Source of the DNA: Candidatus Krumholzibacteriota bacterium
Lineage (GTDB): Bacteria > Krumholzibacteriota > Krumholzibacteriia > Krumholzibacteriales > Krumholzibacteriaceae
DNA length: 32,793 nucleotides
NCBI GenBank assembly: GCA_030609325.1
Contig: JAUWCL010000031.1
Span: forward strand, 1-32,793
Direction of reading: 5' to 3'
The notes under the pieces are model-generated. The model was not told the origin of the DNA, made no database searches, and saw nothing but the letters and a program-made list of their open reading frames with translations. Shown piece by piece: positions 1,571 through 18,160 of the stretch. A program made the position numbers and the translations under genes. The first letter of the stretch is position 1. Each line of letters begins with the position of its first letter.

Positions 1571-1717
1571 ATACTATTGGCTGATATGGGAGAGTCCCGG
1601 TTCCTCCCGACCGGACAAGATGGTGTCGGTGGGGGGTATCGGGTTTGTTTTCATTTACTGAATTCTGTGAAGGCGGGCAAGGCTGCGAACCAGTGCCTGT
1701 CAGACGGAGGATACTCT

Positions 1718-2779
1718 ATGAGCCTTTCGAGAAAGCTGGGCCTGTCGGTCGTGACCTTCGCCGTGATGGCGACGGTCCTCGCGTCGGCGGCCGCGGCGGG
1801 GCAGAAAGACCCGCCGAAGATGTACATAAAAAACAAGGCGCCTGATCTGGGCACTTACTACGAAGGCGTGGACATCGAGTATGAGTTCACGGTGAGGAAC
1901 AACGGGGTGGCGGAGCTTCACATACTCGGCGTCCGCCCCGGGTGAGGCTGCTCGGTGGCCGACTATGACGAGGTCATCCCTCCCGGGTCGGAGGGAAAGA
2001 TAGGCGTAAAACTCATAGGACACAAACTTCACCCCGGACGCTTCAAGAAGAGCTTCACGGTGAAGACGAACGATCCCGAAAACGCGAAGGTGACGCTCAG
2101 CGTCATCGGGCATATCAAGCAGGTCTTCCGGGTCTCCAAGGGTCTGTCCCTTTCGGGGTACAAGGGCGAAGATCTCAAGGAAGAAGTGATCCTCACATTG
2201 GCTCTCGAAGAGGGAATCGACCTGACCGGATATCACTGGTCAAAGAAGAGCAGGGACAGAAAGGCCCTCGAGGAGAGCGTCGGCGTCAAGATCACGCCGA
2301 TTGAGAAAGGAAAGAAGTACAAGATCGAGACGTGGCTGAAGAAAGACCTTCCGCCGAGGCAGTACTTCGCCGACCTGTTCATCGAGACCGATTTCGACGA
2401 GCTGCCAGAAAAGAAACTGGCGTTCCGGCTTCATATCATGGACGACGTCGAGCTCCATCCGAGCACGATATACATGAGGGAGCTCCTGATGGCCGAGGGA
2501 ACGACGAAGAGCTTCGAGAAGGTAGTCTCGGTCATCTCGGCAAGGGGAGACTCGCTGAAGATCCTCGACGTGATCCCGAGCGACAAGTCGATAACCTGGA
2601 ATATCAGGGAGGTCAAACCAGGCAAGGCGTACACGTGCAGGTTCCAGATCCGTCCGCGATCTGAGCCTGGAAAGTACGAGGCCTCGCTGAAGTTCCTGAC
2701 AAATTATCCCGGATATGAGGAGCTCGTGGTCCCGATCAAGGGATCCGTGAGATTGACGAAGGATACGCGAAAGAAATAA
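1718..2779 (+). CDS. DUF1573-domain exported protein with in-frame TGA; candidate selenoprotein
   Basis: ATG at 1718 is preceded by GGAGG (1706-1710) and followed by a signal peptide (residues about 1-27, ending ASAAAAG). The frame runs to TAA at 2777 but is crossed by one TGA at 1943-1945, codon 76. The reading is GVRPG-(TGA)-GCSVADYDEVIPPG. DUF1573 proteins have a conserved CGC motif here (typically SCGCTVA), so the TGA stands for the first Cys and gives U-G-C. There is no frameshift, and the next 277 codons stay open with the same codon style. The N-terminal region (about 35-120) is the Ig-like DUF1573 domain; the rest (to 353) looks beta-rich and also exported. The family's role is unclear. 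A TlpA-like thioredoxin gene follows after a terminator. Alternatives are a nonsense mutation or sequencing error, giving a pseudogene split at 1945. Confidence 0.7.
1946..1991 (+). promoter_or_regulatory. candidate bacterial SECIS hairpin
   Basis: Immediately after the TGA at 1943-1945, ATGAC (1965-1969) pairs with GTCAT (1973-1977) around a GAG loop that starts 24 nt after the TGA. An outer stem CCGAC (1959-1963) with GTCGG (1987-1991) can form around it. A short stem, a small apical loop beginning with G and a distance of roughly 16-37 nt from the UGA are the published features of bacterial SECIS elements. The asymmetrical internal loop (9 nt on the 3' side) makes the outer stem less sure. 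Seen by eye, not folded by software. Confidence 0.45.
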
Positions 2780-2860: not shown

Positions 2861-3787
2861 ATGACAGATAAAATAAGGATTCTTGTACTGGCCCTGACGG
2901 CCGTGGCGGTCTTCGCCGGCGCGGCCGGCGCCGACGCTGCCAGGGAGGCCGCGGCGAAGGAGGTGTACGAGCAGCTGATGGCCGAGATCCAGCGGGGCCG
3001 GAACACGGTTCCGATGGATCAGCTCGTCGTCAAGGCCGAAGAGGAGCTGAAGGGCATCATCGAGGCCTACCCCGGCACGGCAGCATCGGGCAGCGCGATG
3101 GTGGTGCTCGGGCAGATCTATTCACAGATCGGACGGGGCGTGGACGCGATGGAGATCCTGAAAAAATACCACGCCGGCAGTTTCCCGAAGGAACCATCGG
3201 AAAAGGGGATGGCGTGGATGTCGGTCGGCAACGCCTGCCTCGCCGAGGACGATTTCGATGGGGCCGAGAAGGCCCTGCGAAAGGCCGTCGCCGTCAAGGG
3301 CATCAAGCCGGGTATGAAGAAATCGGCCGAAGGGATGATCGCGCGCCTCGAGACGATGAAGAAGCTCAGGATCGGCGCCGAGGCGATCGACTTCAGGACG
3401 ACGGACATCGCGGGCAAGGGGATCAGCCCTGCCGACTACAGGGGCAGGGTCGTCCTCCTAGACTTCTGGGCAACCTGGTGCGCTCCCTGCCGGGCGGAGA
3501 TGCCCACCGTCAAGAAGATCTACTCGACCTATCACGAGAAGGGTTTCGATATCATCGGCGTTTCGATGGACAACAACCGCAACGCCTTCTATTCCTTCCT
3601 GAAAGACCAGGACATGAAGTGGCGCCAGATCTACGACGGCAAGGGCTGGCAGGCAGAGATAGGCCAGCTCTACGCGGTCAGCTCGATCCCCTCCACCTTC
3701 CTCATCGACAAGCAGGGAAGGATCCGGTACAAGAACCTCCGCGGCAATGAGCTTGAGAAGGCGGTCGAGAAGTTGCTGAAGGAGTAG
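2861..3787 (+). CDS. exported TlpA/ResA-like thioredoxin with N-terminal helical repeat region
   Basis: 308 residues. A signal peptide (about 1-25, with AVFAGAAGADA) is followed by an alpha-helical, TPR-like region (30-165) and then a redoxin domain (about 170-308). The active site WATWCAPC lies in the stretch after YRGRVVLLDF, and a cis-Pro region SSIPSTFLID is present, as is usual for the TlpA/ResA/AhpC-TSA group. Such proteins act outside the cytoplasmic membrane as disulfide reductants for cytochrome maturation or other thiol proteins. It directly follows the DUF1573 gene, which carries a Cys/Sec redox-type motif, so the two may be functionally linked; this is inference. It lies between two terminators, so it is probably a single-gene unit. 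Confidence 0.85.
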   Translation: MTDKIRILVLALTAVAVFAGAAGADAAREAAAKEVYEQLMAEIQRGRNTVPMDQLVVKAEEELKGIIEAYPGTAASGSAMVVLGQIYSQIGRGVDAMEILKKYHAGSFPKEPSEKGMAWMSVGNACLAEDDFDGAEKALRKAVAVKGIKPGMKKSAEGMIARLETMKKLRIGAEAIDFRTTDIAGKGISPADYRGRVVLLDFWATWCAPCRAEMPTVKKIYSTYHEKGFDIIGVSMDNNRNAFYSFLKDQDMKWRQIYDGKGWQAEIGQLYAVSSIPSTFLIDKQGRIRYKNLRGNELEKAVEKLLKE

Positions 3788-4047: not shown

Positions 4048-5097
4048 ATGCAGTTTATCGACTCGACAAACTTCGAGAGGTTGCTCAAGAAGCTTTCCGG
4101 TGAGGGAGAGCTTTTTGTGCCCGTCACGGAAAAAGACACCGGAAAACTCCATATAGAGCGAGTCGAAGCCTTTCCTCTTCCCGAAGGGATGAGCGTCGAA
4201 GGCTACCGTACGGTCGAGACGCTGAAAGGATTCGCACAGCTCCTCCGTTCGACAGTCGCAGAATATCCCTCGGAGGAGCTCGACGAGTTCGAGGCCGATG
4301 AAAACACGCTTTCATACATAGTGGTCGGCGCGAGGGCCTGTGACGTCGCAGCCATGGAGCTGGTAGACAGGGTGCAGATCGAGGGAGAATTCGAGGACCC
4401 GTTTTACCGGATCCGCAGGGAGAAGATGTTCACGATAGCCGCCGATTGCACCGACTGCGGCGAGTCGTGCTTCTGCACCCTGCTCGGCAGGAAGCCATGG
4501 CCGGAGAAGGGTTTCGACCTGGCGATCTCAAAGGTCGACGCGGGGTATCTCATCGAGGCGGGATCCGAGCGCGGTGAAAAAGTCATCTCGGAGAACGGCG
4601 ATCTTTTCATCGCTCCGCGCGACGGTCAGGAGAAGTCTAGGGACGAGGCGCGGGCGAAGGTCGTCGCGAAACTCGAGAAAAACAACAGGGATTTCCCCGA
4701 CGCGACGAAGATGACCGAGCCGCTCAGGAAGGCGCTGGCCGACGGGCTCTGGGACAAGGAGTCGGCGAAATGCGTCGAGTGCGGCGCCTGCACCAATATC
4801 TGCCCGACCTGCTACTGTTTCCTCCTGTTCGATACGGTGGAGGGAGAGAAGTACAGGAGAGTGATGTCCTGGGATAGCTGTCAGGTCACCGGATACGCGA
4901 GGATGGCAGGGATGGGCAACCCGAGGCCGCGCCTGAGCGACCGCGTCAAACACAGGTTTTATCACAAGTACGATTATCTGCCCCTCAGCCACGGCGAGAT
5001 CTTCTGCACTGGCTGCGGCAGGTGCATCGACGCCTGTTCGGCCGGGATAGACATGCGTGCAGTGTTCCGGAATGTAATGAGCAAGGTAGCCAAGTAA
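4048..5097 (+). CDS. sulfhydrogenase beta (HydB/AsrA)-like iron-sulfur subunit
   Basis: 349 residues, resembling HydB of archaeal sulfhydrogenases and AsrA of anaerobic sulfite reductase. The family hallmark GARACDVAAM is at 94-103. A Cys-rich site C134-x2-C137-x3-C141-x-C143 follows, and the C-terminus carries two [4Fe-4S] ferredoxin-type motifs: C242-x2-C245-x2-C248-x3-C252 (with two extra Cys, 255 and 257) and C320-x2-C323-x2-C326-x3-C330. The role in the family is to pass electrons between the flavin subunit and the rest of the enzyme. It is the first gene of the operon, 13 nt before the flavin subunit gene. In this operon it should form the entry arm for NAD(P)H electrons; that pairing with a group 4 hydrogenase is inferred. 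Confidence 0.85.
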   Translation: MQFIDSTNFERLLKKLSGEGELFVPVTEKDTGKLHIERVEAFPLPEGMSVEGYRTVETLKGFAQLLRSTVAEYPSEELDEFEADENTLSYIVVGARACDVAAMELVDRVQIEGEFEDPFYRIRREKMFTIAADCTDCGESCFCTLLGRKPWPEKGFDLAISKVDAGYLIEAGSERGEKVISENGDLFIAPRDGQEKSRDEARAKVVAKLEKNNRDFPDATKMTEPLRKALADGLWDKESAKCVECGACTNICPTCYCFLLFDTVEGEKYRRVMSWDSCQVTGYARMAGMGNPRPRLSDRVKHRFYHKYDYLPLSHGEIFCTGCGRCIDACSAGIDMRAVFRNVMSKVAK

Positions 5098-5110
5098 GGG
5101 AGCAAATGGG

Positions 5111-5938
5111 ATGAAAAACCCGTATTATCCCATCGATACCGTTGTTGAAGATATCATAACGGAAACCCCGACGATCAAGACGTTCGTCCTCAAGCCGGTC
5201 AGGCCTGTCAAGTTCCGTGCCGGCCAGTTTATGCAGCTTACCGTCCCCGGACTGGGCGAGGCGCCGTTCACGCCCAGCTCCGATCCGAACATCACTGAGA
5301 GGATGGAGATCAGCATTCTCAAGACGGGAAAGGTGACGAACGCGCTGCACGAGCTCGGTCCCGGCGCGAAGGTCGGGCTGAGAGGGCCGTTCGGCAAGGG
5401 ATACCCGCTCGAGAAGCTCGTGGGCAAGGATGTCCTCGTGGTGGGCGGCGGCGTGGGCCTCGCCCCGATGAGGGCGCTGCTCTACGCCCTCTTCGACGAT
5501 CCGTCGAAGTACAGGAAGATCGTCATCAGGTTCGGCGCCAGGGAGCCGGCGGAACTCAGCTTCCGCAGGCAGTACGACGAGTGGCGCGCCCTTGCAGGCA
5601 ACATATCGCTGAAGACCACGATCGACGTGCCGCATCCCGACTGGAGCGGGCACGTCGGCCTGGTGACGACGCTGCTGGAGCCCGACAAGCTCGAGGGCAT
5701 AGACATAGTCGACAGCTACGCACTTTCGTGCGGCCCCGAGATCATGCTCAAGTTCGTTACACTGAAGCTTCTCGAGATCGGCTACAAGCCTCCGCAGATC
5801 TATCTTTCAATGAACAGGAAAATGTCGTGCGGCATGGGCAAGTGCGGACGGTGCAACGTCGGCCACTACTATCTGTGCGTCGACGGCCCTGATATGTGTT
5901 ACGACAAGATCAAGCACGTTCCGAACGTGTTCGGCTAG
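5111..5938 (+). CDS. sulfhydrogenase gamma (HydG/AsrB)-like FAD/NAD(P)-binding subunit
   Basis: 275 residues of the ferredoxin-NADP reductase superfamily. An FAD-binding barrel (about 10-100) includes FRAGQFMQLTVPG (35-47) and the APFTPSS turn (51-57), which replaces the classical RxYS as in HydG/AsrB and dihydroorotate dehydrogenase electron-transfer subunits. The nucleotide-binding part starts with LVVGGGVGLAPM (109-120) and has the SCGPE motif (206-210). The C-terminus binds a [2Fe-2S] cluster through C240-x4-C245-x2-C248-x7-C256. It should exchange hydride with NAD(H) or NADP(H) and single electrons with the HydB-like partner encoded just upstream. Cofactor preference cannot be settled by eye. 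Confidence 0.87.
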   Translation: MKNPYYPIDTVVEDIITETPTIKTFVLKPVRPVKFRAGQFMQLTVPGLGEAPFTPSSDPNITERMEISILKTGKVTNALHELGPGAKVGLRGPFGKGYPLEKLVGKDVLVVGGGVGLAPMRALLYALFDDPSKYRKIVIRFGAREPAELSFRRQYDEWRALAGNISLKTTIDVPHPDWSGHVGLVTTLLEPDKLEGIDIVDSYALSCGPEIMLKFVTLKLLEIGYKPPQIYLSMNRKMSCGMGKCGRCNVGHYYLCVDGPDMCYDKIKHVPNVFG

Positions 5939-5986
5939 TTCACTTGTGGTTGGGCCGTACCGGCGGCCCGGGAAGAAAAGTCGTCT

Positions 5987-7774
5987 ATGAGTGAAATACG
6001 CAGCAACTGTTCGATCTGCTCCCTCGCCTGCCCCCTGATCCTCAAGGGTGGCGGGAGGAGCCCGATCTTCACGAACAAGTCGATTCTCTCTCTGGAGTGG
6101 GACGACAGTGAAGACTCGAAGTACGGCGGAAGTCTCTGCGCCCGCGGGGCGGCGATGGTGGAATTCGTCTCCCACCCCGACAGGCTCAACTACCCGTTCG
6201 TCCTCGGAGAGAGGTCGACCTATGAGGCGGCAGTCAAGGAAGCGGCGAAAAACCTCTCGGTCGTCAAGGGCGAGGCCGGCGGCGACGCGATCGGCGTCAT
6301 GATCGGCGACAACCTGACGAACGAGGAGGCTGCGCTCGCGCTGAAGTTCGCCAGAGATGTGATTGGAACCGAGAACATCGCTCTAATGGCCCCCGACGAC
6401 GTCCCGCTGTTCAGGGCGTGGATGGAGTACGACCTCTCCGGTCTCGGCCCCGCCGGGCAGAAGCCCGTCGGTGAGAAGCAGGTCTTCCTGCTCGTCGGAG
6501 ACCCCTTCTCCGAGCACCCGTGCACGGCCAGGGCCGTTGCGGCCGGCAAGTACGCGGGCAGGGGCAACGAGGTCATCGCGATAGGTCCGGAGAAGAATCA
6601 CTCGGCGTGGTTCGCCAACAGGCACCTCAGGTGCCGGCCGGGCGGTGAGCCGGCGGTCCTCGCGGGATTGCTCAAGGCGGCGGCCGCAAAGAGCGGCGCG
6701 CGGCTGACTGGCGAGCTCGGGAAGCTGATCGGCTCGCTGGACTGGAACGAGATAGAACGTCTCGGCGGCATCTCGAGGGACGACCTCGAGGGTGCTGCCG
6801 GCTCCATGCTCGGGGCCGCCTCTGTCGAGACATATGTTTCGAATATATTCGGACGATTCGGAGCGCCCGGCCTGACATCGATCCTGGCCGAGGCGGTGAC
6901 GCGGATCTGCCCCGGAGAGACCGTCTTTAACGCCCAGTTCGTTCAGCAGAACACCTGGGGGATCTACTCGGTCCTCGCCGGCGCTGGAAACGGAAAGGCC
7001 CTCGCCAACATCGCCTCCGGCGGCGTGCAGGCATTTGTGCTGCTCGGGCTCGATCCGGCTTCCGTTTTCCCCGCCGCACCGGTGGAGAAGGCGCTTCGCA
7101 ACAGCAAGTTCACCGTCGCCACGCAGCTGTTCAGGGGACAGGCCGCATCCGGCGCCAACGTCGTGATCCCCGCGGCGACCCTGGTCGAGAAGAAGGGCAC
7201 CGTGTCGCCATCGTTCGGAGAGGACATAGTCCGCGAAGAGACGATAGCCCCGCTCGCCGGCACTGTCAGCGACGGGCAGTTTCTCACCGATCTGGCGAAG
7301 GAGATGGGAGTCGGGCTTGCGGCGGCATCCGTGGAGAGAAAGACGGCAAGGACCGGTGCGGGAGAGAGCCTCGCCGCGGACTGGGCGGGCTACGCGGCGG
7401 AGATCAAGAGCCTGGAGAACGCGGATACCGTCCTCATCCCGTGGAGCGAAGCGGTTCATGCCGCCGACGGATCGATCAGCAGGAACCTCCTCTGGTCAAA
7501 GATCACATGCCCCGAGCCGGAGCTGATGGTGTCCAGGCAGATCGCCGAAGAGATGAACATTAGTGACGGCGATCTCCTGAAGGTCGTCTCCGAGGGCGGA
7601 GAGGCTGTGCTCGCGGCCAGGCCGACGGGCAAGCTCGAGGGAAAGACTGTCGCGGCGACGATACACTTCCCCTCGGTCCGCAAGCTGTTCCCGTGGAAGC
7701 TGAATGAACGACATGGTGAGATAAGCCTCGCCCCGGTCGCGGTGACCCTGGGCAGGCAAAGTGAGAAGAACTGA
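5987..7774 (+). CDS. formate dehydrogenase alpha/NuoG-like molybdopterin-fold subunit without the catalytic Cys/Sec
   Basis: 595 residues. The N-terminus has the FdhA/NuoG [4Fe-4S] motif C8-x2-C11-x3-C15 ... C51 in the context LCARG, then FVSHPDRL. The next FDH landmark, TNEEAALALKFARDVIGTEN (111-130), is well kept. In FdhA it is followed by ARL(C/U)H with the Mo/W-ligating Cys or Sec; here the sequence is IALMAPDDVP (131-140), with no Cys and no TGA in the DNA. The C-terminal molybdopterin-dinucleotide-binding domain (about 480-590, with NISDGDLLKVVSEGG) remains. So it is built like an FDH alpha subunit but should not catalyse formate oxidation; an electron-transfer or structural role like NuoG is more likely. 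It lies between the HydBG-like genes and a HycB-like ferredoxin. Confidence 0.8.
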   Translation: MSEIRSNCSICSLACPLILKGGGRSPIFTNKSILSLEWDDSEDSKYGGSLCARGAAMVEFVSHPDRLNYPFVLGERSTYEAAVKEAAKNLSVVKGEAGGDAIGVMIGDNLTNEEAALALKFARDVIGTENIALMAPDDVPLFRAWMEYDLSGLGPAGQKPVGEKQVFLLVGDPFSEHPCTARAVAAGKYAGRGNEVIAIGPEKNHSAWFANRHLRCRPGGEPAVLAGLLKAAAAKSGARLTGELGKLIGSLDWNEIERLGGISRDDLEGAAGSMLGAASVETYVSNIFGRFGAPGLTSILAEAVTRICPGETVFNAQFVQQNTWGIYSVLAGAGNGKALANIASGGVQAFVLLGLDPASVFPAAPVEKALRNSKFTVATQLFRGQAASGANVVIPAATLVEKKGTVSPSFGEDIVREETIAPLAGTVSDGQFLTDLAKEMGVGLAAASVERKTARTGAGESLAADWAGYAAEIKSLENADTVLIPWSEAVHAADGSISRNLLWSKITCPEPELMVSRQIAEEMNISDGDLLKVVSEGGEAVLAARPTGKLEGKTVAATIHFPSVRKLFPWKLNERHGEISLAPVAVTLGRQSEKN

Positions 7775-7778
7775 GTTT

Positions 7779-8258
7779 ATGGAGAAGAGAATCTATATCA
7801 ACATGAACCTGTGCACCGGATGCCGCGCGTGCGCCGCCGCCTGCGCCCAGGGACACCATGACCAGGGATTGCTCAAGCACGGAGCCGTGGAAGAGGTCGC
7901 ACTCATGCCTCTCCAATGCAGGCACTGCGACACGCCGCTCTGTCTCGAGGTATGTCCCCAGGGTGCGATCAAGAAGGACGACAACGGCACAATCGTGCGC
8001 ATGAGCCAGCTCTGCATCGGCTGCAAGTCGTGCATCATGTCCTGTCCCTTCGGTGTGATGTTCATGCATTCGACATGGCACTTGTCGCCGAAGTGCGATC
8101 TCTGCTATGACCGGCTTGAAGAGGGAAAGCAGCCGCGCTGCGTCGTGACATGTACGTCGGGAGCTCTCGTGTTCGAGGAGCTCACCGAGCTGGAGAAGAA
8201 ACACAGACACGCCGCTGAAGGCGGGCGCTATTTTGCCCGCTGGATGCTGGAGCGTTAG
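7779..8258 (+). CDS. HycB/CooF-like ferredoxin subunit with four [4Fe-4S] motifs
   Basis: 159 residues from the ATG at 7779; the frame is open back to a GTG at 7761, but MEKRIYINMNLCTGC is the usual start of this family. The Cys groups are CTGCRACAAAC, CRHCDTPLCLEVCP, CIGCKSCIMSCP and CDLC...RCVVTC, the pattern of FdhB/HycB/CooF/HydN electron-transfer proteins that carry four cubane clusters. In known systems these link a formate dehydrogenase or CO dehydrogenase to a membrane hydrogenase. Here it should connect the pseudo-FDH and HydBG-like subunits to the hydrogenase core encoded next. It lies 4 nt after the upstream gene and 12 nt before the next. Confidence 0.88.
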   Translation: MEKRIYINMNLCTGCRACAAACAQGHHDQGLLKHGAVEEVALMPLQCRHCDTPLCLEVCPQGAIKKDDNGTIVRMSQLCIGCKSCIMSCPFGVMFMHSTWHLSPKCDLCYDRLEEGKQPRCVVTCTSGALVFEELTELEKKHRHAAEGGRYFARWMLER

Positions 8259-8270
8259 CGGAGAGGACCT

Positions 8271-9203
8271 ATGGACGCTGCGAAATATCTGTTCAACTAT
8301 CTGATATTTCCCGGGTTTCTTTTCACGGCGGTAGTCGGCCTCCTGGCGACGTGGGTGGACCGCAAGGTCACCGCGAGGGTGCACTGGAGAGTAGGGCCTC
8401 CCTGGTACCAGCCGTTCGCCGATACCGTGAAGCTGCTCGGGAAGGAAGTCATCGTCCCCGCCGGGGCCAGGGCGACCGGATTCCTCATCGCTCCCGTCGT
8501 CGGCCTCGCCGCGGCCACTCTGGCTTCGGCGATCCTGTGGATGGCCAACCTCTATCCGTCGTCGTCGTTTGTCGGCGACTCCATCGTTGTCCTCTACATC
8601 ATGACGATTCCTGCGATCTCGATGATCATCGGCGCGAGCGCCTCAGGCAACCCGCTGGGGATTCTCGGGGCCGCTCGCGAGATGAAGCTGCTCTTCGCCT
8701 ACGAGCTGCCTCTCGTTATCATCATGCTGACGACGGTAGTCAAGGTCGGCAGCTTCTCCTTCGAGGAGATACTCGGCTACCAGAGCGCAAACGGAATCAT
8801 GCTCGGAAGCGTCTCGGGAGTGATCGCGTTCATCGTCGCGATATTCTGCGCCCAGGCGAAGTGTACGATGATTCCGTTCGATATCCCCGAGGCGGAGACG
8901 GAGCTGGCCGGAGGCACCCATATCGAGTATTCGGGCGCCCCGCTCGCCGTCGTGAAGCTGAACATGGGCATCATGTTCTTCGTCATGCCGATATTTATCA
9001 TCACGATGTTCTGGGGCGGCGTCTCGTTCGCCGGCTTGAGGATCCTAACGACGATCCTCAAGTATGTCGCGATTATAACGATAATGATCCTTATAAAGAA
9101 TACGAACCCCAGAGTGAGAATCGACCAGGCTGTGCGGTTCTTCTGGGGTCCGATGCTTGTCCTTTCGATTATCGCATTGATCCTGGCGGTGCTGGGGTAC
9201 TAG
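8271..9203 (+). CDS. mbhM: group 4 hydrogenase membrane subunit, NuoH/MbhM/HyfC-like
   Basis: 310 residues with about eight hydrophobic segments. Conserved features of the NuoH family are present: WVDRKVTARVHWRVGPPWYQ near the start (about 28-47), AREMKLLFAYELPL on the cytoplasmic side, and PFDIPEAETELAGG in the loop that contacts the hydrogenase arm, followed by THIEYSG. In complex I and Mbh this subunit joins the peripheral redox arm to the ion-pumping arm and holds the chain of charged residues at their junction. Gene order NuoH-, NuoB-, NuoC-, NuoD-like is typical of a group 4 hydrogenase core module. Confidence 0.9.
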   Translation: MDAAKYLFNYLIFPGFLFTAVVGLLATWVDRKVTARVHWRVGPPWYQPFADTVKLLGKEVIVPAGARATGFLIAPVVGLAAATLASAILWMANLYPSSSFVGDSIVVLYIMTIPAISMIIGASASGNPLGILGAAREMKLLFAYELPLVIIMLTTVVKVGSFSFEEILGYQSANGIMLGSVSGVIAFIVAIFCAQAKCTMIPFDIPEAETELAGGTHIEYSGAPLAVVKLNMGIMFFVMPIFIITMFWGGVSFAGLRILTTILKYVAIITIMILIKNTNPRVRIDQAVRFFWGPMLVLSIIALILAVLGY

Positions 9204-9220
9204 GTCGCGGAGGCTTGTAA

Positions 9221-9634
9221 ATGTCACTGGCGCTCAAAGCATTAAAGAAATCGCCCTGGGTCTTTCACGTGAACACCGGCGCATGCAACAACTGCGACAT
9301 AGAGATCCTCGATGCTCTCACGCCGAGGTTCGATCTCGAGCGGTTCGGCATCTTGCTCGTGGGCAGCATCAGGCACGCCGACGTGCTGCTCATCACCGGC
9401 CCGGTAACGCGCAACGTCCTGCCCCGCCTGAAGAGGCTGTACGAGCAGGCGCCCAAGCCGATCAAGGTCATCGTGATCGGGGCGTGCGGTTGCCGTTGCG
9501 GCATCTTCCGCGACGGATACAATATCATCGGACCGGTTGACAAGTTCATACCGGTAGATGCGTATGTCCCCGGCTGTCCCCCCAAGCCGGAAGCCATCAT
9601 AGCGGGGGTAGTAAAGGTACTGGGAACGCTTTAG
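9221..9634 (+). CDS. mbhJ: [NiFe] hydrogenase small subunit, NuoB/MbhJ/EchC-like
   Basis: 137 residues. The proximal [4Fe-4S] cluster motif is visible: TGACNNCDIEIL (C22, C25), GACGCRCG (C89, C91, C93) and VPGCPPKPEAI (C119). The shortness and lack of extra Cys motifs match group 4 hydrogenases and NuoB rather than periplasmic uptake hydrogenases. It would pass electrons between the ferredoxin-like subunits and the Ni-Fe centre in the large subunit. Confidence 0.92.
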   Translation: MSLALKALKKSPWVFHVNTGACNNCDIEILDALTPRFDLERFGILLVGSIRHADVLLITGPVTRNVLPRLKRLYEQAPKPIKVIVIGACGCRCGIFRDGYNIIGPVDKFIPVDAYVPGCPPKPEAIIAGVVKVLGTL

Positions 9635-9662
9635 GGATGACGAACACGGGGAAACAGGAAAT

Positions 9663-10184
9663 ATGGAAAGGGAAGAAGTAAAGAAAAGGATCGCGGAGAG
9701 ATTCGGCGGCAAGGTCCAGATAGCCGAGCGGTCGGAGAAGAGGGTCTACATATACGCAGAGAACGAGATCTGGGTCGATCTCGCCTCGTTCCTGTTCAAC
9801 GATCTCGATGCGAGGTTCGATACGGGCGTCGGCATCGACGACCGCGACGGCGTCGAGGTGATGTTCTTTTTCCCCTTCGACCGCGAAGGGTATTACGTGA
9901 CTGTAAAAACGTTCGCGAAGAAGCCTCATCCGGAGCTCGATTCGATCTCGCCGGTAATACCCGGAGCCAAGTGGATCGAGCAGGAGATATTCGAGATGTA
10001 CGAGGTCAACTTCAGGAACCACCCCGACCTCAGGCCCGTACTGCGGTCGGATACTAGGCCCGCCGACTTCTATCCTCACAAACGGGAGATCAAGTGCAAG
10101 CACGAGATGTCCCGCGTGAAGAACGACGGCGAGGAAAGGGCCGACGAGGTGGCGGGAAAGCCTCTGAAGGGACAGAACCCGTAA
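9663..10184 (+). CDS. mbhK: hydrogenase 30-kDa-type subunit, NuoC/MbhK/EchD-like
   Basis: 173 residues. The signature of the complex I 30-kDa family, WIEQEIFEMYEVNFRNHPDL, lies in the middle (about 105-124), followed by a charged C-terminal tail (after about 140) that the family does not need. It is a structural subunit between the large and small hydrogenase subunits. ATG at 9663 follows GGGGAAACAGGAAAT, which has only a moderate ribosome-binding site. Confidence 0.85.
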   Translation: MEREEVKKRIAERFGGKVQIAERSEKRVYIYAENEIWVDLASFLFNDLDARFDTGVGIDDRDGVEVMFFFPFDREGYYVTVKTFAKKPHPELDSISPVIPGAKWIEQEIFEMYEVNFRNHPDLRPVLRSDTRPADFYPHKREIKCKHEMSRVKNDGEERADEVAGKPLKGQNP

Positions 10185-10231
10185 GAGAATTTCAGGCCTG
10201 TAAGGCTGTGTTGATAAAGAGGTGAACAGAA

Positions 10232-11437
10232 ATGGTTAAAAAGATCCCGATCGGCCCGTTCCACCCTGTTCTTGAGGAGCCCGAGTTCTTCGAGCTCCAC
10301 GTCGATGGGGAGAACGTGGTCGATATCGACATAACGATCGGCTGGAGCCACAGGGGGATCGAACTTCTTTCCGAGTCGAAGACCTGGGACCAGGTGCCCT
10401 TCCTCGTGGAGAGGGTCTGCGGCATCTGCTCATGCTCCCATCCGTATGCCTACGTCAAGGCAGTCGAAGATCTGCTGCAGGTCGAGGTCCCGAAACGCGC
10501 CCAGTTCATCAGGATCATCATCGCCGAGCTCGAGAGGCTGCACAGTCACCTGCTCTGGACGGGCCTGGCGGGCCATTTCATCGGGTACAATACGGTCTTC
10601 ATGTGGTGCTGGAAGTACCGCGAGCCCCTTCTTGACATACTCGAGGCCGTGACGGGCAACAGGAACCACTACGCGATGATGCGCATAGGCGGCGTCAGGC
10701 GCGATATACCGCTCGAGGAGTACGGGAACATCCGCAAGATGCTCGATTCCCTCTGGGAAAAGAACGACTTGATCACCAATGCAATCGTCGACGATCCGGT
10801 CATTCACGCGAGGACGAAGACCGTCGGGATCTTCAACAAGGACCAGTGCCGTCTCTACGGGGCGCTCGGACCCACGGCGAGGGCGGGAGGATACGACGTC
10901 GACGCCAGGCGCGATCATCCGATCGACGCATACGGAGAGCTCGATTTCGACGTCATCGTATGTGAGAATGGGGACGTCTTCGACAAGGCCGTCGTCCGTC
11001 AGCTGGAGAACTTCGAAGCGATAAAGATAATCAGACAGTGCCTCGACAGGCTCGAGGAAATGGGTCCGATGAAGGACGACAGCGAGCTCTGCATCGAGAT
11101 AGGCGAAATCCCGCCCGGCGAGGGCATCGGCGTCTACGAGGCCCCCCGCGGCGAGGTGCTTCACTACATACGCTCGAACGGCAAGAACACGCCGATGAGG
11201 CACAAGATCCGCGCCCCGAGTTTCAACAACATCCTCACGAACGAGGCGAGCGTGCCGGGCAACACGGTAGCCGACGCAGGCCTGATCACGGCGGCAGTCG
11301 ATCCCTGTTACTCGTGCACGGAGCGAGTCGGACGTGTCGATGTTAATTCCGGCGAGAGATACGTTCTCTCGGAGGGAGACCTGATAAGGCTGTCCGCGGA
11401 GAAGACCGAGGAGATCCGCAGGCAGCTGGGAAAGTGA
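10232..11437 (+). CDS. mbhL: group 4 [NiFe] hydrogenase large (catalytic) subunit, NuoD/MbhL/HycE-like
   Basis: 401 residues. Both Ni-binding motifs are complete: RVCGIC (C63 and C66) near the N-terminus and DPCYSC (C359 and C362) near the C-terminus. This marks a genuine [NiFe] hydrogenase and excludes NuoD or the sulfur-reducing Mbx/Mbs type, which lose these Cys. The sequence DPCYSCTER then V closely resembles the site where E. coli HycE is cut by HycI, so cleavage after Arg365 with loss of about 36 residues is predicted; a maturation protease gene lies 6.7 kb downstream. The start has AAAGAGGTGAACAGAA just upstream. It should catalyse reversible proton reduction on the cytoplasmic side. 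Confidence 0.95.
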   Translation: MVKKIPIGPFHPVLEEPEFFELHVDGENVVDIDITIGWSHRGIELLSESKTWDQVPFLVERVCGICSCSHPYAYVKAVEDLLQVEVPKRAQFIRIIIAELERLHSHLLWTGLAGHFIGYNTVFMWCWKYREPLLDILEAVTGNRNHYAMMRIGGVRRDIPLEEYGNIRKMLDSLWEKNDLITNAIVDDPVIHARTKTVGIFNKDQCRLYGALGPTARAGGYDVDARRDHPIDAYGELDFDVIVCENGDVFDKAVVRQLENFEAIKIIRQCLDRLEEMGPMKDDSELCIEIGEIPPGEGIGVYEAPRGEVLHYIRSNGKNTPMRHKIRAPSFNNILTNEASVPGNTVADAGLITAAVDPCYSCTERVGRVDVNSGERYVLSEGDLIRLSAEKTEEIRRQLGK

Positions 11438-11464
11438 CTTAACACTTATTTACGCGTAGCGGAG

Positions 11465-11480
11465 ATGAATGAATGAATGA
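11465..11480 (+). repeat. (ATGA)4 tetranucleotide repeat spanning the start codon
   Basis: Four perfect ATGA units lie directly after GGAG (11461-11464). The third unit holds the real ATG (11473), 8 nt from the GGAG. The first two ATGs give only the tripeptide Met-Asn-Glu before TGA, and the fourth gives a five-codon frame. Change in unit number would alter the spacing between ribosome-binding site and start without changing the protein's frame. Confidence 0.6.
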
Positions 11481-13338
11481 GTTGTTGTTTTTAATACTGA
11501 TGCCGGCTGTCGCGGGGCTGGTGCCCCTCTTCATCCCGAGAAAGGGCAAGATCGTGGCGGGGATCGTCGCGCTTGCCGCATCGGTGTGGATGCTCGTCAA
11601 TGCGGTCAGGATATTCGGCGCAGGAGCGAAGGAGTACAGCGTAAGGCTATTCACGATCGGTGGTGAGCTTCCATTCGACTTCTCCCTTCGCCTCTACCAG
11701 TTCAACGCGTTCATACTGCTGTTCATCGCCCTGTTCGGGGTCCTCGTGATTTTTTATTCCATCGGATACATGCGGGGCAAGGACAGGTCGAGCATCTATT
11801 ACTCGTTCATACTGTGGACCCTGTCCGCAGCGGCCGGCGCCGTACTCGCGAACAATCTGCTGATTCTCCTGATGTTCTGGGAGGTGCTCACCGTAATCCT
11901 TTTCTTCCTCGTCAACATGGGCGACGAGGGACACGAAATCGCGGCGGGCAAGACTTTCACAATGCTCGGATTCACCGACGCGGGCATGCTTCTGGCCATC
12001 GTGATTATCTGGGTCACCTGCGGCACGCTCGAGATCTCGTCGCTCAAAATCGCGGCAACTGGCTTTACAGGCGTTCTGACCTTCCTGCTTCTCTTTATCG
12101 GAGCTATCGCGAAGGCAGGCGCGATGCCCTTCCACTCCTGGATTCCCGCAATGGCCGAGCCAACACCTGTCCCGGTGATCGCTTTTCTCCCCGCCTCACT
12201 CGACAAGCTGCTCGGGATATACCTGCTGGCGAGGATCTCCCTCGACATCTTCTCGATCAGGACCGGCTCGGGCCTTTCGCTGATGATGATGATCGTGGGA
12301 GCGGGTACGATAATATTTGCCGTCCTCATGGCGCTCGTCCAGCACAACCTCAAGAAACTCCTCTCATTCCACGCCGTCAGCCAGGTCGGCTACATGGTGC
12401 TCGGCGTCGGGAGCGGGATACCGGTGGCAATCGTCGGCGGGCTGTTCCACATGCTCAATAACGCGATATACAAGTGCGGCCTGTTCCTGGGCGCCGGAGC
12501 GGTGGAATTCAGGACGGGGACAACAGACCTCGAGGAGCTGGGAGGACTTGCGAAACTGATGCCGGTTACGTTTGTAACGATGGCCATCACGGCGTTCTCG
12601 ATATCCGGCGTGCCGCCTTTCAACGGATTCGTATCGAAATGGCTCATTTACCAGGGAATGCTCGAAGGTCCGGGCTACAACGTCATATTCCTCGTCGTAG
12701 CCGTGTTCGGAAGCGCCCTGACGCTCGCCTCGTTCGTCAAGGTCCTGCACTCCGTCTTCCTCGGAAGGCGCCAGGAGAAGTTCGCCGGCGTGCGCGAGGC
12801 GGGCTTTGCCATGCAGGTGCCGATGATATTTCTAGCGATCCTCTGCATAGTCTTTGGCGTCTACGCCAGGCTTCCCCTGGAGAAGTTCATCATTCCGAGC
12901 GTCGCGGGAACGACCGGAGTCAGCGTGGAGCAGATGGCGGTAAGCACCACATCGGGATACTGGAACCCAGTGATCGCGACTGTCCTGTTGTTCGCAGGGC
13001 TGGTCGTCGGACTGATCATATACGCATTTGGAAAGACGAAACACGTTCGTATAGATGAAAACGTGTGGGTCGGCGGAAACATCATGGACAACGAAGAGAT
13101 GAGGATTCCCGGCACGCATTTCTATAAGACTGTGACAGACGACCTGCATCCCGCCTGGTCGGCCCTGTTCAGGGACGGGCAGGAAGGTGCCCTGGACATC
13201 TACAATATCTGGGGTAGAATAGGGTTCAACGTCGTCCAGGTGCTGAGGAGCCTGCACAACGGCATCCTGTCGACGTACCTGTCCTGGGCAATCATAGGGC
13301 TGGGAGTGCTGACGTTCGTGTTGATGTTCGCCTTGTAG
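11473..13338 (+). CDS. NuoL/HyfB-like antiporter-type ion-pumping subunit
   Basis: 621 residues and about 14-16 transmembrane segments. Residues of the complex I/Mrp antiporter family are present: Glu137 in LMFWEVLTV, Lys214 in AIAKAGAMPFHSW with His221, Lys245 in ASLDKLLG, Lys294/Lys295 and His300 in NLKKLLSFHAVSQ, and Lys389 in PPFNGFVSK. A C-terminal extension (after about 480) includes a soluble stretch and a last membrane helix, as in HyfB or MrpA-like proteins. It should carry H+ or Na+ across the membrane. It is a second antiporter-type subunit beside the MrpD-like one at 14830. The start at 11473 is set by GGAG eight bases upstream. Confidence 0.88.
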   Translation: MNELLFLILMPAVAGLVPLFIPRKGKIVAGIVALAASVWMLVNAVRIFGAGAKEYSVRLFTIGGELPFDFSLRLYQFNAFILLFIALFGVLVIFYSIGYMRGKDRSSIYYSFILWTLSAAAGAVLANNLLILLMFWEVLTVILFFLVNMGDEGHEIAAGKTFTMLGFTDAGMLLAIVIIWVTCGTLEISSLKIAATGFTGVLTFLLLFIGAIAKAGAMPFHSWIPAMAEPTPVPVIAFLPASLDKLLGIYLLARISLDIFSIRTGSGLSLMMMIVGAGTIIFAVLMALVQHNLKKLLSFHAVSQVGYMVLGVGSGIPVAIVGGLFHMLNNAIYKCGLFLGAGAVEFRTGTTDLEELGGLAKLMPVTFVTMAITAFSISGVPPFNGFVSKWLIYQGMLEGPGYNVIFLVVAVFGSALTLASFVKVLHSVFLGRRQEKFAGVREAGFAMQVPMIFLAILCIVFGVYARLPLEKFIIPSVAGTTGVSVEQMAVSTTSGYWNPVIATVLLFAGLVVGLIIYAFGKTKHVRIDENVWVGGNIMDNEEMRIPGTHFYKTVTDDLHPAWSALFRDGQEGALDIYNIWGRIGFNVVQVLRSLHNGILSTYLSWAIIGLGVLTFVLMFAL

Positions 13339-13363
13339 CAAACGAAGAGGGAAGTGTATACGG

Positions 13364-13957
13364 ATGGAGATCGTTCTCCTTTTTCTGCTGGCATTCATGA
13401 TAATCGGTTCGATTATCGCGATCGAGACGAAGAACCTGCTTTCTTCGGTCATCTCGGTCGGCGTCGTCGGGTTCAACCTCAGTATCATCTTCCTGATGCT
13501 CGGGGCGCCGGACATCGCGATTACACAGGTCGTGGTCGAGATCCTCATCCTGGTCGTTTTGATCAGAGCGACGATCACGACCGATAATACCTCCATCGAA
13601 GGCCCGAGGGACACCTTCCCGTTCGTTTCGAGCCTCATCTTCTTCGGACTCTTCCTGATGTTCGCCTTTTTCGCGGTTCAGGAAATTCCGAAGTTCGGCG
13701 AGCCCATTATGAAGGTGTCAAAGGAATACCTCAGGACGGGGCCGGAAAAGACCGGTGCGGCGAACGTCGTGACCGCCATACTCCTCGACTTCAGGGCCTA
13801 TGATACACTTGGTGAGGCGACCGTCCTGTTCACCTCGATCATCGGGGCCTTTGTCATCCTGAGGAGAAAGGGCCGCAAGGGCAAGGCCGAGGTCGACGAG
13901 GAGAAATTCGGCATACTCGAGGACGAGGATATCAAGCAGAACTTCGAGGGGTTCTAG
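13364..13957 (+). CDS. fused MbhD-MbhE (MrpA C-terminal type) membrane subunit
   Basis: 197 residues with about five membrane helices. The first part (1-75) is the MbhD/DUF4040 type: LLSSVISVGVVGFNLSIIFL, then GAPDIAITQVVVEILILVVL. The second part (about 120-165) is MbhE-like, with NVVTAILLDFRAYDTLGEAT, the conserved DFR-x-x-DT-x-GE-x pattern seen at the MrpA C-terminus. In Pyrococcus Mbh these are separate genes (mbhD, mbhE); here they form one protein. It belongs to the Na+/H+ antiporter-derived module. Confidence 0.85.
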   Translation: MEIVLLFLLAFMIIGSIIAIETKNLLSSVISVGVVGFNLSIIFLMLGAPDIAITQVVVEILILVVLIRATITTDNTSIEGPRDTFPFVSSLIFFGLFLMFAFFAVQEIPKFGEPIMKVSKEYLRTGPEKTGAANVVTAILLDFRAYDTLGEATVLFTSIIGAFVILRRKGRKGKAEVDEEKFGILEDEDIKQNFEGF

Positions 13958-13967
13958 GGAGCGCTAA

Positions 13968-14465
13968 ATGGACAGACTCGAACAGGAAATCAGGGACACG
14001 AGCAAAGGGATGACCCCTATAGTCAAGACTATCACCAGGTTCGCGATAGGGATCATCGTCATCTTCGGGGCCTATATCATCCTTTACGGACACCTCACTC
14101 CGGGCGGCGGATTCGCCGGCGGCGTGATCCTCGCCTCTTCCTACGTCCTTCTGACGCTGGCCTTCGGCAAAGACATGGCATTGAGCAAGATGGGCAACAC
14201 GGCGGCCTCGATCCTCGACAACTCGGGCGCGCTCGCGTTCGTGGTCATAGGGCTGCTGGGATTTACGGGCGGGTATTTTTTCTACAACTTCCTCCCGAAG
14301 GGAGAGCAGTTCCAGCTGTTCAGCGCCGGATTTATCCCCCTTTTGAATATAGCGATCGGCGTGAAGGTTACGGCGTCGCTCTTCGCGATATTTATGGCCC
14401 TCTCGATCTTCGGAAGGTTCATTTACCAGGCCGCAGAGGGCGAAGAACGGGAAAGCGAGGAATAA
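13968..14465 (+). CDS. mrpB: MrpB/MnhB (MbhF)-like subunit
   Basis: 165 residues with four hydrophobic segments. LYGHLTPGGGFAGGVILASS (about 44-63) is the family signature of MnhB. It is a small membrane subunit of the Mrp cation/proton antiporter, conserved as MbhF in membrane-bound hydrogenases. The gene starts 10 nt after the fused MbhDE gene. Confidence 0.9.
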   Translation: MDRLEQEIRDTSKGMTPIVKTITRFAIGIIVIFGAYIILYGHLTPGGGFAGGVILASSYVLLTLAFGKDMALSKMGNTAASILDNSGALAFVVIGLLGFTGGYFFYNFLPKGEQFQLFSAGFIPLLNIAIGVKVTASLFAIFMALSIFGRFIYQAAEGEERESEE

Positions 14466-14468
14466 CGG

Positions 14469-14819
14469 ATGATCCTGTATTTCCTTTCAATGGTGCTTCT
14501 GGTAATGGGGCTGTACTGCCTCGTCGCCAAAAAGAATATCGTCAAGAAGATCATCGGGATCGTGATCATCGAGTATTCCGTCAACCTATTCCTCGTTCTC
14601 GTGGGTTACAGGAGCGGCGGCATCGCGCCCATTCTTGTGAAAGGCATGCAGGCCGAGGAGCTCGTGCAGAAGGGCGTAGATCCCCTGCCGCAGGCCCTTG
14701 TGCTCACGTCGATCGTCATCGGCCTCGGAACGATGGCCCTCATGGTGGCCCTCTGTCTGAGGATGTACGAGAAGTTCAAGACGTTCGACATGTCAAAGAT
14801 AAACACGCTTAAGGGATAA
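14469..14819 (+). CDS. mrpC: MrpC/MnhC (MbhG, NuoK-like) subunit
   Basis: 116 residues with three transmembrane helices, related to NuoK. Typical features are GLYCLVAKKNIVKKIIGIVI near the N-terminus, then a helix with YSVNLFLVLVGY and a helix starting DPLPQALVLTSIVIG. The PLPQALVLTSIVI string is a strong mark of the family. ATG at 14469 lies 3 nt after the mrpB stop, so the two are translationally coupled. Confidence 0.92.
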   Translation: MILYFLSMVLLVMGLYCLVAKKNIVKKIIGIVIIEYSVNLFLVLVGYRSGGIAPILVKGMQAEELVQKGVDPLPQALVLTSIVIGLGTMALMVALCLRMYEKFKTFDMSKINTLKG

Positions 14820-14829
14820 GAGGAGCCAA

Positions 14830-16332
14830 ATGCAGACGTATTATCCATTGTTCACGGCGATTCCGCTTGCGGCGGCGTTTCTGAACCTTCTCCTGTCGAA
14901 GATCTCGATGAAGGTGAGCGACTATATCGCGTTCCTCGTGACCGGGATACTCGCCGTGATGGCCGTCAGGATGCTCTTCGAGGCTCCCTTTATCTACGCC
15001 GTCGGCAACTGGAGGCCGCCTCTCGGCATCCTCCTCGTCTCGGACGGCCTTAGTTCCCTGATGCTGGTCATTATCAATGTAATCGGCCTGCTGGCCGTGA
15101 TCTTCTCGATGAAGTACATGACGACGTACACGGCCAAGCCGAAGTACTACTCGCTTTTCATGCTGATGATCGCCGGCATGAACGGTGTCGTTATAACGGG
15201 CGATATGTTCAACCTCTACGTCTTCCTCGAGATCGCGTCGATCGCCTCGTACGCCTTGGTGGGATTCGGCACCGGGAAGAGGGAACTCGAGGCTTCGTTC
15301 AAATACCTGGTCCTCGGCGGAGTGGCGAGCACGGCGATCCTCTTCGGCATCGCGTTTCTCTACTCGATCACCGGGACGCTGAATATGCCCGACCTCGCGC
15401 AGCAGCTCGAGACGATAGGCATGACGAGGACGGTGGGCTTCGTGGTTGCCCTGTTCATCATGGGCTTCGGCCTGAAGGCCTCTGCCGTTCCGTTCCACGC
15501 CTGGCTGCCTGACGCTCACCCGAGCGCGCCGGCGCCGATCTCCGCGATGCTTTCCGGCGTCCTGATCAAGGCGCTCGGCATCTACACGATAATGCGGATC
15601 ATGTTCAACATCATCGGCCAGAACGAGCTCATCTCGGCGATCATCATGTTCCTCGGCGCTCTCTCGATGGTCGTAGGTGTCCTGCTCGCAGTGGGCCAGT
15701 CGGATTTCAAGAGGATGCTCGCTTACCATTCGATCAGCCAGATGGGTTATGTCACGATAGGGGTAGGCCTGGGCCTGAATCCGAAAATCGATCCGGCCGT
15801 TGCGGCGCTCGGACTTTTCGGCGGACTGTTCCACCTGGTCAACCACGCCGTCTTCAAGTCGTGCCTCTTCCTCTGCTCGGGGGCGTTCGAGTACAGGACT
15901 GGGACGAGAGAAAAGCACGAGATGGGCGGTCTCGTCAGAAAGATGCCTGTAACGAGCACAACATGTTCAATCGCCTCCCTCTCGATATCGGGGGTGCCGC
16001 CGTTCAACGGTTTCTGGAGCAAGCTCATAATCATCCTTGCATTGATCAAGGCGGGATACTGGATATACGGCCCAATAGCCGTTCTGGTGGCCTTCATAAC
16101 GCTGATATCGTTTATCAGGCTGCAGACGGGCGTTATGTTCGGCAAGTTGCCGGAGAAGTTCTCGGGCGTGAAGGAAGCACCGTTTGCGATGACGCTGCCG
16201 CTGATATTGCTGGCGATTCTCTGCCTCGGTATCGGGATAGCCTATCCCTGGATAGACTATGGGCTTCTGCAGGCTGCCCGGGATGCGCTGCTCGACAAGA
16301 TGGCGTACATGAACTATCTGATCGGTGGGTAA
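14830..16332 (+). CDS. mrpD: MrpD/MnhD (MbhH)-like antiporter subunit
   Basis: 500 residues, about 14 transmembrane helices. The antiporter residues are in place: Glu134 in LYVFLEIASIASYAL, Lys216 in GLKASAVPFHAWLPDAHP with His223, Lys247 in GVLIKALG, Lys294 and His300 in FKRMLAYHSISQMGY, and Lys398 in PPFNGFWSK. The LPDAHPSAPAPISA string is typical of MrpD/MbhH. It should form an ion channel of the pumping arm. Together with the NuoL-like protein at 11473 the operon encodes two such subunits, as in Mbx and unlike classical Pyrococcus Mbh with one. Confidence 0.92.
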   Translation: MQTYYPLFTAIPLAAAFLNLLLSKISMKVSDYIAFLVTGILAVMAVRMLFEAPFIYAVGNWRPPLGILLVSDGLSSLMLVIINVIGLLAVIFSMKYMTTYTAKPKYYSLFMLMIAGMNGVVITGDMFNLYVFLEIASIASYALVGFGTGKRELEASFKYLVLGGVASTAILFGIAFLYSITGTLNMPDLAQQLETIGMTRTVGFVVALFIMGFGLKASAVPFHAWLPDAHPSAPAPISAMLSGVLIKALGIYTIMRIMFNIIGQNELISAIIMFLGALSMVVGVLLAVGQSDFKRMLAYHSISQMGYVTIGVGLGLNPKIDPAVAALGLFGGLFHLVNHAVFKSCLFLCSGAFEYRTGTREKHEMGGLVRKMPVTSTTCSIASLSISGVPPFNGFWSKLIIILALIKAGYWIYGPIAVLVAFITLISFIRLQTGVMFGKLPEKFSGVKEAPFAMTLPLILLAILCLGIGIAYPWIDYGLLQAARDALLDKMAYMNYLIGG

Positions 16333-16350
16333 AAAAAGAAAAGGTAGAAG

Positions 16351-16836
16351 ATGAAACGCTTCGTTCACTTTCTGTTGCTGTTGGGGATATGGATGCTGCT
16401 GACATGGTCGCTGCATTGGCAGGATCTGCTTGTCGGCGCGTTCATCGCGTTCATAGCCGATCTGATGTTCGGTGACATCTACCCGGTCAATGCGGTCAGG
16501 ATCCTGAACCCGGTGCGCTTCTTCTGGTTCGTCGTATACGGCGTCACTTTCCTCGCCTACGTGATCAAGGCGAACTTCGACGTCGCGTACAGGGTGCTGA
16601 ACATCAACATGCCGATACGGCCGGGTATCGTGAAAGTAAGGACCGGGCTCAAGACAGATATGGCCAGGACCTTCCTCGCCAACTCGATCACATTGACGCC
16701 GGGAACGCTCAGCATCGACTTCATCGGGGATCATCTTTACATCCACTGGATAAATATTACCTCCGACGATGCCGTGAAGGAAACGGAGATTATCGTTCAG
16801 CGTTTTGAGCAAATGCTAGAAAGGGTATTCGAGTGA
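16351..16836 (+). CDS. mrpE: MrpE/MnhE (MbhA)-like subunit
   Basis: 161 residues. Two or three N-terminal membrane helices are followed by a soluble region. The MnhE pattern VIKANFDVAYRVL (about 71-83) and NSITLTPGTLSID (about 111-123), then HLYIHWINIT, are clearly present. In Mrp antiporters this subunit is structural. The last codons overlap the following GTG start by four bases. Confidence 0.9.
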   Translation: MKRFVHFLLLLGIWMLLTWSLHWQDLLVGAFIAFIADLMFGDIYPVNAVRILNPVRFFWFVVYGVTFLAYVIKANFDVAYRVLNINMPIRPGIVKVRTGLKTDMARTFLANSITLTPGTLSIDFIGDHLYIHWINITSDDAVKETEIIVQRFEQMLERVFE

Positions 16837-17087
16837 TCGTATTCGTCTCACTGCTGGTCTTCTGTGTCTTTCTCTGTCTGTACAGGGTAGGGAAAGGACC
16901 GACAGCCCCTGACAGAACGGTGGCGATCGACATACTCGGGACGCTCGTGGTAGGGTTCTGCGCGATATACTCGATCGTCACCAAGAAAGACCTGTACATG
17001 AACATCGGATTATCATGGGCGCTCCTGAGCTTCATCGGGACCCTCGCCCTGGCTAAATATCTCGAAGGGAGGGGTTTCGATGAATGA
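16833..17087 (+). CDS. mrpF: MrpF/MnhF (MbhB)-like subunit
   Basis: 84 residues with three membrane helices, starting at a GTG within GTGA that overlaps the mrpE stop. RVGKGPTAPDRTVAIDILGT (about 22-41) matches the conserved GPt-x-DRv-x-a-D region of MrpF. The next gene overlaps its end by 8 bases. Confidence 0.9.
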   Translation: MIVFVSLLVFCVFLCLYRVGKGPTAPDRTVAIDILGTLVVGFCAIYSIVTKKDLYMNIGLSWALLSFIGTLALAKYLEGRGFDE

Positions 17088-17424
17088 GACCATCGGATTG
17101 ATACTGCTGATAGTCGGCATCTCGTTCGATGTCGTAGGGTGTATCGGCCTTGTCAGGCTGCCCGACATCTATAACCGCCTCCAGGCAGCGACGAAGTGCG
17201 TAACGCTCGGGACGTGCATGATCCTGCTCAGCGTCGTCTTCTACACCGGCCTGAACTCGATCGGCGTGAAGGCTCTGCTTTGCATCTGGTTTGTCCTGAT
17301 AACAGCGCCCACCGGCGCTCATGCCATCGCCAGGGCCGCCCACAGGTCGGGGATCCGGCTCTGGGAGGGAAGCGTCATGGACAAGTACGCCGACGACAAA
17401 GAAGGCACTGAGGATACAGCCTGA
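17080..17424 (+). CDS. mrpG: MrpG/MnhG (MbhC)-like subunit
   Basis: 114 residues with three membrane helices. GCIGLVRLPDIYNRLQAATK (about 20-39) is the clear MnhG signature, and TAPTGAHAIARAAHRSGI (about 72-89) is the second. The C-terminal tail is charged. It closes the Mrp-like module; the order E-F-G is the same as in mrp operons. Confidence 0.92.
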   Translation: MNETIGLILLIVGISFDVVGCIGLVRLPDIYNRLQAATKCVTLGTCMILLSVVFYTGLNSIGVKALLCIWFVLITAPTGAHAIARAAHRSGIRLWEGSVMDKYADDKEGTEDTA

Positions 17425-17455
17425 GAATGGCGCTGGTACATCGGGGGTTTTTCAA

Positions 17456-18085: not shown

Positions 18086-18108
18086 TCGTGGACTGTATTC
18101 GATCTTTC

Positions 18109-18136
18109 AAGGCCCCTCACCCTCAGGGGCCTTTTT
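18109..18136 (+). terminator. rho-independent terminator of the hydrogenase operon
   Basis: AAGGCCCCT (18109-18117) pairs perfectly with AGGGGCCTT (18125-18133), loop of 7, then a T-run. The maturation protease gene starts only 25 bases further on, so partial readthrough or a separate start of transcription is needed for it. Confidence 0.85.
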
Positions 18137-18160
18137 CCTGGTAAGGACGGGAGGAACAGG

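Follow-up and report, generated by a model that had tools for sequence, protein, structure and literature searches.

A DUF1573 gene of Krumholzibacteriota crossed by a single in-frame TGA very probably encodes a divergent selenoprotein

A gene of a Candidatus Krumholzibacteriota bacterium that appears to be broken by a stop codon is very probably intact, with its in-frame TGA decoded as selenocysteine (Sec). The gene lies within the window, by which we mean the whole stretch of 32,793 nucleotides analysed here (contig JAUWCL010000031.1 of assembly GCA_030609325.1). From the sequence evidence laid out below, we are highly confident that 1718-2779 is a genuine selenoprotein gene in which the UGA at 1943-1945 is read as Sec. 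Its product falls in the DUF1573 family and, judged by its sequence, is a new, divergent branch of the known Sec-DUF1573 proteins. The features that bear on this reading are as follows.

1706..1710, + strand: ribosome-binding site GGAGG (by sequence), seven bases before the ATG
1718..2779, + strand: Sec-DUF1573 gene, 353 codons and TAA; putative signal peptide, three predicted Ig/ASH-like domains, DUF1573 at residues 37-131
1943..1945, + strand: in-frame TGA, very probably read as Sec76 of a Sec-Gly-Cys motif
1955..1977, + strand: conserved, almost invariant hairpin GUGGCC/GGUCAU adjoining the SECIS hairpin
1978..1995, + strand: probable SECIS hairpin with the stem CCCUCC/GGAGGG; its loop, CGGGUC, lies 38 nt from the UGA, and 1977-1996 folds at -12 kcal/mol
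2861..3787, + strand: gene for a TPR and TlpA-like thioredoxin protein (active site CAPC); a conserved neighbour on the downstream side, proposed as redox partner

The frame is single and continuous from the ATG at 1718 to the TAA ending at 2779, and its sole in-frame stop is the TGA at codon 76, which is followed by 277 more codons before the TAA. Read through, the sequence around this codon becomes RPG-U-GCSVADYDE. The Pfam DUF1573 profile (PF07610) matches residues 37-131, a segment that spans the TGA, with an E-value of 6e-18 and a score of 65 bits against a gathering cut-off of 26.1. At its N-terminus the protein has a hydrophobic stretch that ends in an AxA-type sequence, as a signal peptide would. 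A first-pass annotation of this DNA had described the same frame, ribosome-binding site, signal peptide, 353 codons and single TGA, and that description stood up when the reading frame was checked and PF07610 was found to cross the TGA.

We surveyed homologues in 118 related genomes and in 80 from the phylum itself, and in each homologue we read the codon in the aligned column of residue 76. A TGA occupies this column in 26 copies from 25 Krumholzibacteriota genomes, which are spread over three families and reach down to about 28% identity. Nearly all of these copies have no other stop in the matched stretch; the exception is G012, with an additional TAG. The motif columns C76 (U), G77 and C78 are invariant in 25 alignment rows. 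Cys codons (TGC/TGT) stand in the same column in copies found in tandem with Sec copies in three genomes (G014, G017 and G045), and in G044 both DUF1573 copies have Cys and there is no Sec copy. Distant DUF1573 proteins in other families of the phylum also keep the Cys. The first-pass annotation had placed the TGA at the first Cys of a CGC motif and had suggested looking among relatives for TGA/TGC alternation and for genes with several stops; the column indeed holds TGA or TGY, the alternation is there, and several stops were seen in G012 alone.

This distribution bears on two of the alternatives. If the TGA were a true stop, the locus would be a pseudogene, or else would encode a 75-residue fragment and a separate protein beginning at GTG 1955, and an open reading frame of 274 codons with a GTG start does exist past the TGA. 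Against this stand the identical TGA column in 26 copies from three families, nearly always as the sole stop, the DUF1573 match that runs across the TGA, the Cys copies, which are single open frames across residue 76, and the strong purifying selection on both sides of the codon that is described below; we regard a true stop as very improbable. A sequencing or assembly error is conceivable in that one base separates the Cys codons from TGA, but the same TGA is common to assemblies of many different species, by which an error in this assembly is already refuted, and we give it a negligible chance.

On a tree built with the residue 76 column masked, the Sec/Cys label changes five times on the best tree and at least three times on well-supported branches. 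The Cys copies of G014 and G017 nest within the Sec clade of that tree, so that a replacement of Sec by Cys following duplication is the most likely history of these sequences. The Cys copy of G014 (L036:409-1404) is paralogous to the window gene and resembles it in its three-domain length and CGC motif, but differs in having TGC/TGT for TGA and in not retaining the downstream hairpin.

Selection was assessed with dN and dS computed against the nearest relative, whose protein is 85% identical. Before the TGA, dN/dS is 0.13/0.76 = 0.17, and after it 0.064/0.67, or about 0.10. Coding constraint past the TGA is one of the marks of a bacterial selenoprotein, and the downstream value of 0.10, together with the DUF1573 match at residues 37-131, bears out the earlier claim that the 277 downstream codons keep the frame and the features of the family. 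Synonymous change also drops about fivefold across the TGA, from a dS of 1.15 over the 40 preceding codons to 0.21 over the next 40, as would be expected of an RNA element within the coding sequence.

The window genome, assembled into 2.63 Mb on 56 contigs and 95% complete, encodes the machinery for Sec insertion. All four components that the first-pass annotation had proposed searching for were found: one copy of selA (499.8 bits), one full-length copy of selB (351.1 bits), selD (365.9 bits) and tRNA-Sec (71.5 bits), the last of which was also called by ARAGORN, with anticodon TCA. Two further marks of a bacterial selenoprotein, a single in-frame TGA where homologues have Cys and a full set of selA, selB, selC and selD, are thus both present. 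The selD gene is itself crossed by an in-frame TGA, within MASCSGUASKL (G000:C1:14639-15565, L017), which we take to be the usual Sec position of SelD; this provides an independent second selenoprotein in the window genome. Among the genomes carrying the Sec form, tRNA-Sec was found at strict settings in most, and a complete tRNA-Sec was lacking in four. In two of these, which belong to one genus, a contig end truncates the match (L097, G009:C36; L096, G015:C4), and in the other two, G001 and G042, tRNA-Sec was not found, the best matches being other tRNAs. All four have a selB match above the cut-off, which in G042 covers the N-terminal third only. Because the assemblies are incomplete (80-95%), the missing tRNA-Sec does not contradict the use of Sec.

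The frame is open when the TGA is read through, and this would also be seen if the genetic code were changed so that TGA specified an ordinary residue rather than Sec. However, 12 of the 31 window genes terminate at TGA, so the codon is not simply reassigned and a changed code is already excluded by its use as a stop. The full set of sel genes in the genome also speaks against it, as does the fact that the window has only one convincing in-gene TGA: a scan of all window TGAs revealed no other that could convincingly be read through within one coding frame. The chance that the code is changed is, in our estimate, vanishingly small.

We analysed an ungapped alignment of the 26 Sec copies with RNAalifold, with 500 shuffles as a control. 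Two adjoining hairpins were predicted, the second of which, at 1978-1995, lies 33-50 nt past the UGA and is the probable SECIS of the window gene. In this hairpin 98% of cells are paired and two pairs have changed on both sides (12 such cells), and its paired percentage, doubly changed cells and covariation score were matched by none of the 500 shuffles and by no slid version. The covariation can be followed at the codon level: in ten sequences Leu CTT replaces a Pro codon CCT, and each of these ten has GAA where most others have GAG; in two sequences the Pro codon ends in G instead of T, and these are exactly the two in which the facing base is C. A facing codon that varies between Ser, Lys, Gln, Glu, Arg and Met has G as its third base in 26 of 26 copies. 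By comparison, each of the five Cys copies examined has at least one broken pair in the stem. The strongest covarying pair, a C-G to U-A switch, accounts for only four changes on the tree, which does not suffice for phylogenetic significance testing, and the independent covarying pairs on well-supported branches number only two. The first hairpin, at 1955-1977, is nearly invariant in relatives, and covariation speaks neither for nor against it. Folding energy alone was not unusual (z 0.35 for 1940-1995 and -0.39 for 1946-1995).

The model for bacterial SECIS elements calls for a stem of 4-16 bp, a loop of 3-9 nt with a G in its first two places and an energy of -7.5 kcal/mol or lower, and the UGA lies 16-37 nt from the apical loop in most such elements, though not all (PMC13188914). 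The hairpin at 1978-1995 has a 6 bp stem, the loop CGGGUC (GGUC in the most distant family) and an energy of -12 kcal/mol when the closing U-A pair is included, values that fit the model; its spacing, 38 nt in the window and 38-39 nt overall, falls just outside that range, in the window by a single nucleotide. A different hairpin, at 1965-1977 with its loop 24 nt past the TGA, had been put forward in the first-pass annotation. It can be formed, but it is weak (-1.9 kcal/mol), is paired in 81% of cells across the 26 relatives and shows no compensatory change, and we rejected it as the SECIS; the conserved hairpin is that at 1978-1995.

The same annotation had proposed a new selenoprotein family, and in this it was not upheld. 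A DUF1573 domain-containing protein (PF07610) with the motif UGC is a catalogued selenoprotein family, credited by two reviews to Zhang and Gladyshev 2007, from an Olavius algarvensis symbiont (PMC9312934; PMC13188914). There is also an NCBIfam model for Sec-DUF1573, NF041425, "OS_HP2 family (seleno)protein" (OS_HP2_seleno), and we presume that its OS_HP2 family corresponds to the DUF1573 selenoprotein known from the Delta 1 symbiont of Olavius algarvensis. The review entries and the model together make Sec-DUF1573 an already known kind of selenoprotein. The window protein and that of the Delta 1 symbiont share the Pfam family and the U-G-C motif with Sec first; the UGC/CGC motif of the NF041425 family, published as UGC, is present in the window DUF1573 domain. 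In contrast to the symbiont family, the window protein falls below the model's cut-off, matching positions 10-98 of 98 with an E-value of 4.9e-24 and 84.5 bits against 100; two further Ig-like domains and the TPR-TlpA neighbour are stated for the window side alone. No genome among the 80 from the phylum reaches the cut-off, so these genes are likely to appear in annotations as truncated or split in two, and pipelines relying on this cut-off may miss them. Indeed, current models, with the NF041425 cut-off and a SECIS spacing of 16-37 nt, would miss them. In the literature searched we found no report of an occurrence in Krumholzibacteriota, of a TlpA partner or of the hairpin, and the present genes extend the range of the family to much of this uncultured phylum. 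Separately, one genome outside the phylum, G080, has a Sec-DUF1573 with TGA (L049/L064) that is followed by sequence not fitting this hairpin; its phylum was represented in the search by that genome alone.

The AlphaFold model of the window protein (mean pLDDT 88.9) has Ig-like beta domains behind a hydrophobic N-terminus, three of them by our reading of the strand order, with Sec76 in the turn that joins strands 67-74 and 79-83. A fold search returned only generic Ig/ASH-type and other Ig-like chains, and a sequence search of solved structures with the window protein gave no match. The predicted fold is like that of the ASH/Hydin-type Ig domains (PF22544; cilia central-pair proteins, Porphyromonas 2qsv), at an identity of 7-14% in the fold search, which makes this a likeness of fold only. 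We know of no Sec in domains of the ASH/Hydin type.

A redox role for the DUF1573 protein, which the first-pass annotation had seen as fitting its TlpA-like neighbour, gains from the conservation of that neighbouring gene: a TPR-TlpA gene with CAPC lies downstream in 21 of the 26 Sec loci, including the window. Contig ends come first in three of the other five (L043, L048 and L056), and none was found nearby in L042 and L045. The Cys-only genome G044 also has the gene, and none was found beside the distant Cys-DUF1573 of L091-L094. The likeliest function, taking together the gene pairing, the predicted export and the position of Sec-Gly-Cys in a surface turn, is a periplasmic thiol/selenol relay. 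SelA, SelB, SelC and SelD would insert Sec at UGA 1943-1945, directed by the hairpin 33-50 nt downstream, and the product would be an exported periplasmic protein of three Ig-like domains. The Sec-Gly-Cys in the tight beta-hairpin turn of its first domain could form a selenenylsulfide, and the adjoining TPR-TlpA thioredoxin would reduce or oxidise this pair. On such sequence-based grounds we lean towards Sec-DUF1573 and TPR-TlpA forming a thiol/selenol redox module of two proteins in the cell envelope; the enzymatic function is one that we infer, and the TPR-TlpA partner gene makes the reaction of Sec-DUF1573 testable. More tentatively, the module may be phylum-wide, with a catalytic Sec-Gly-Cys borne on an Ig/ASH rather than a thioredoxin fold and a SECIS beyond the standard spacing. 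If so, it would represent a new kind of selenoenzyme scaffold.

The main rival to the redox relay is that the protein does contain Sec, but that its Sec-Gly-Cys binds copper, mercury or another soft metal in place of taking part in thiol-disulfide exchange. In its favour, Sec and Cys are good ligands for soft metals. Yet the conserved neighbour is a thioredoxin (TlpA) gene, alternation of Sec and Cys is typical of redox sites, and there are just two invariant candidate thiol/selenol ligands, and we consider metal binding unlikely beside the thiol/selenol relay.

Three loci (L036, L056 and L057) have tandem DUF1573 genes in which at least one copy has exchanged Sec for Cys or the reverse, and the Cys copies do not retain the hairpin; with both forms in one genome, these are natural Sec/Cys pairs for asking what Sec adds. 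Elsewhere in the window, and read from translations only, 4048-18631 is a long cluster for a membrane-bound complex of the energy-converting [NiFe]-hydrogenase/Mrp-antiporter type that also includes iron-sulfur, FAD/NAD-binding and hydrogenase maturation protease-like genes. At 10232-11437, the large subunit of the hydrogenase ends by the same reading in the Cys-form DPCYSCTERV, not in a Sec form.
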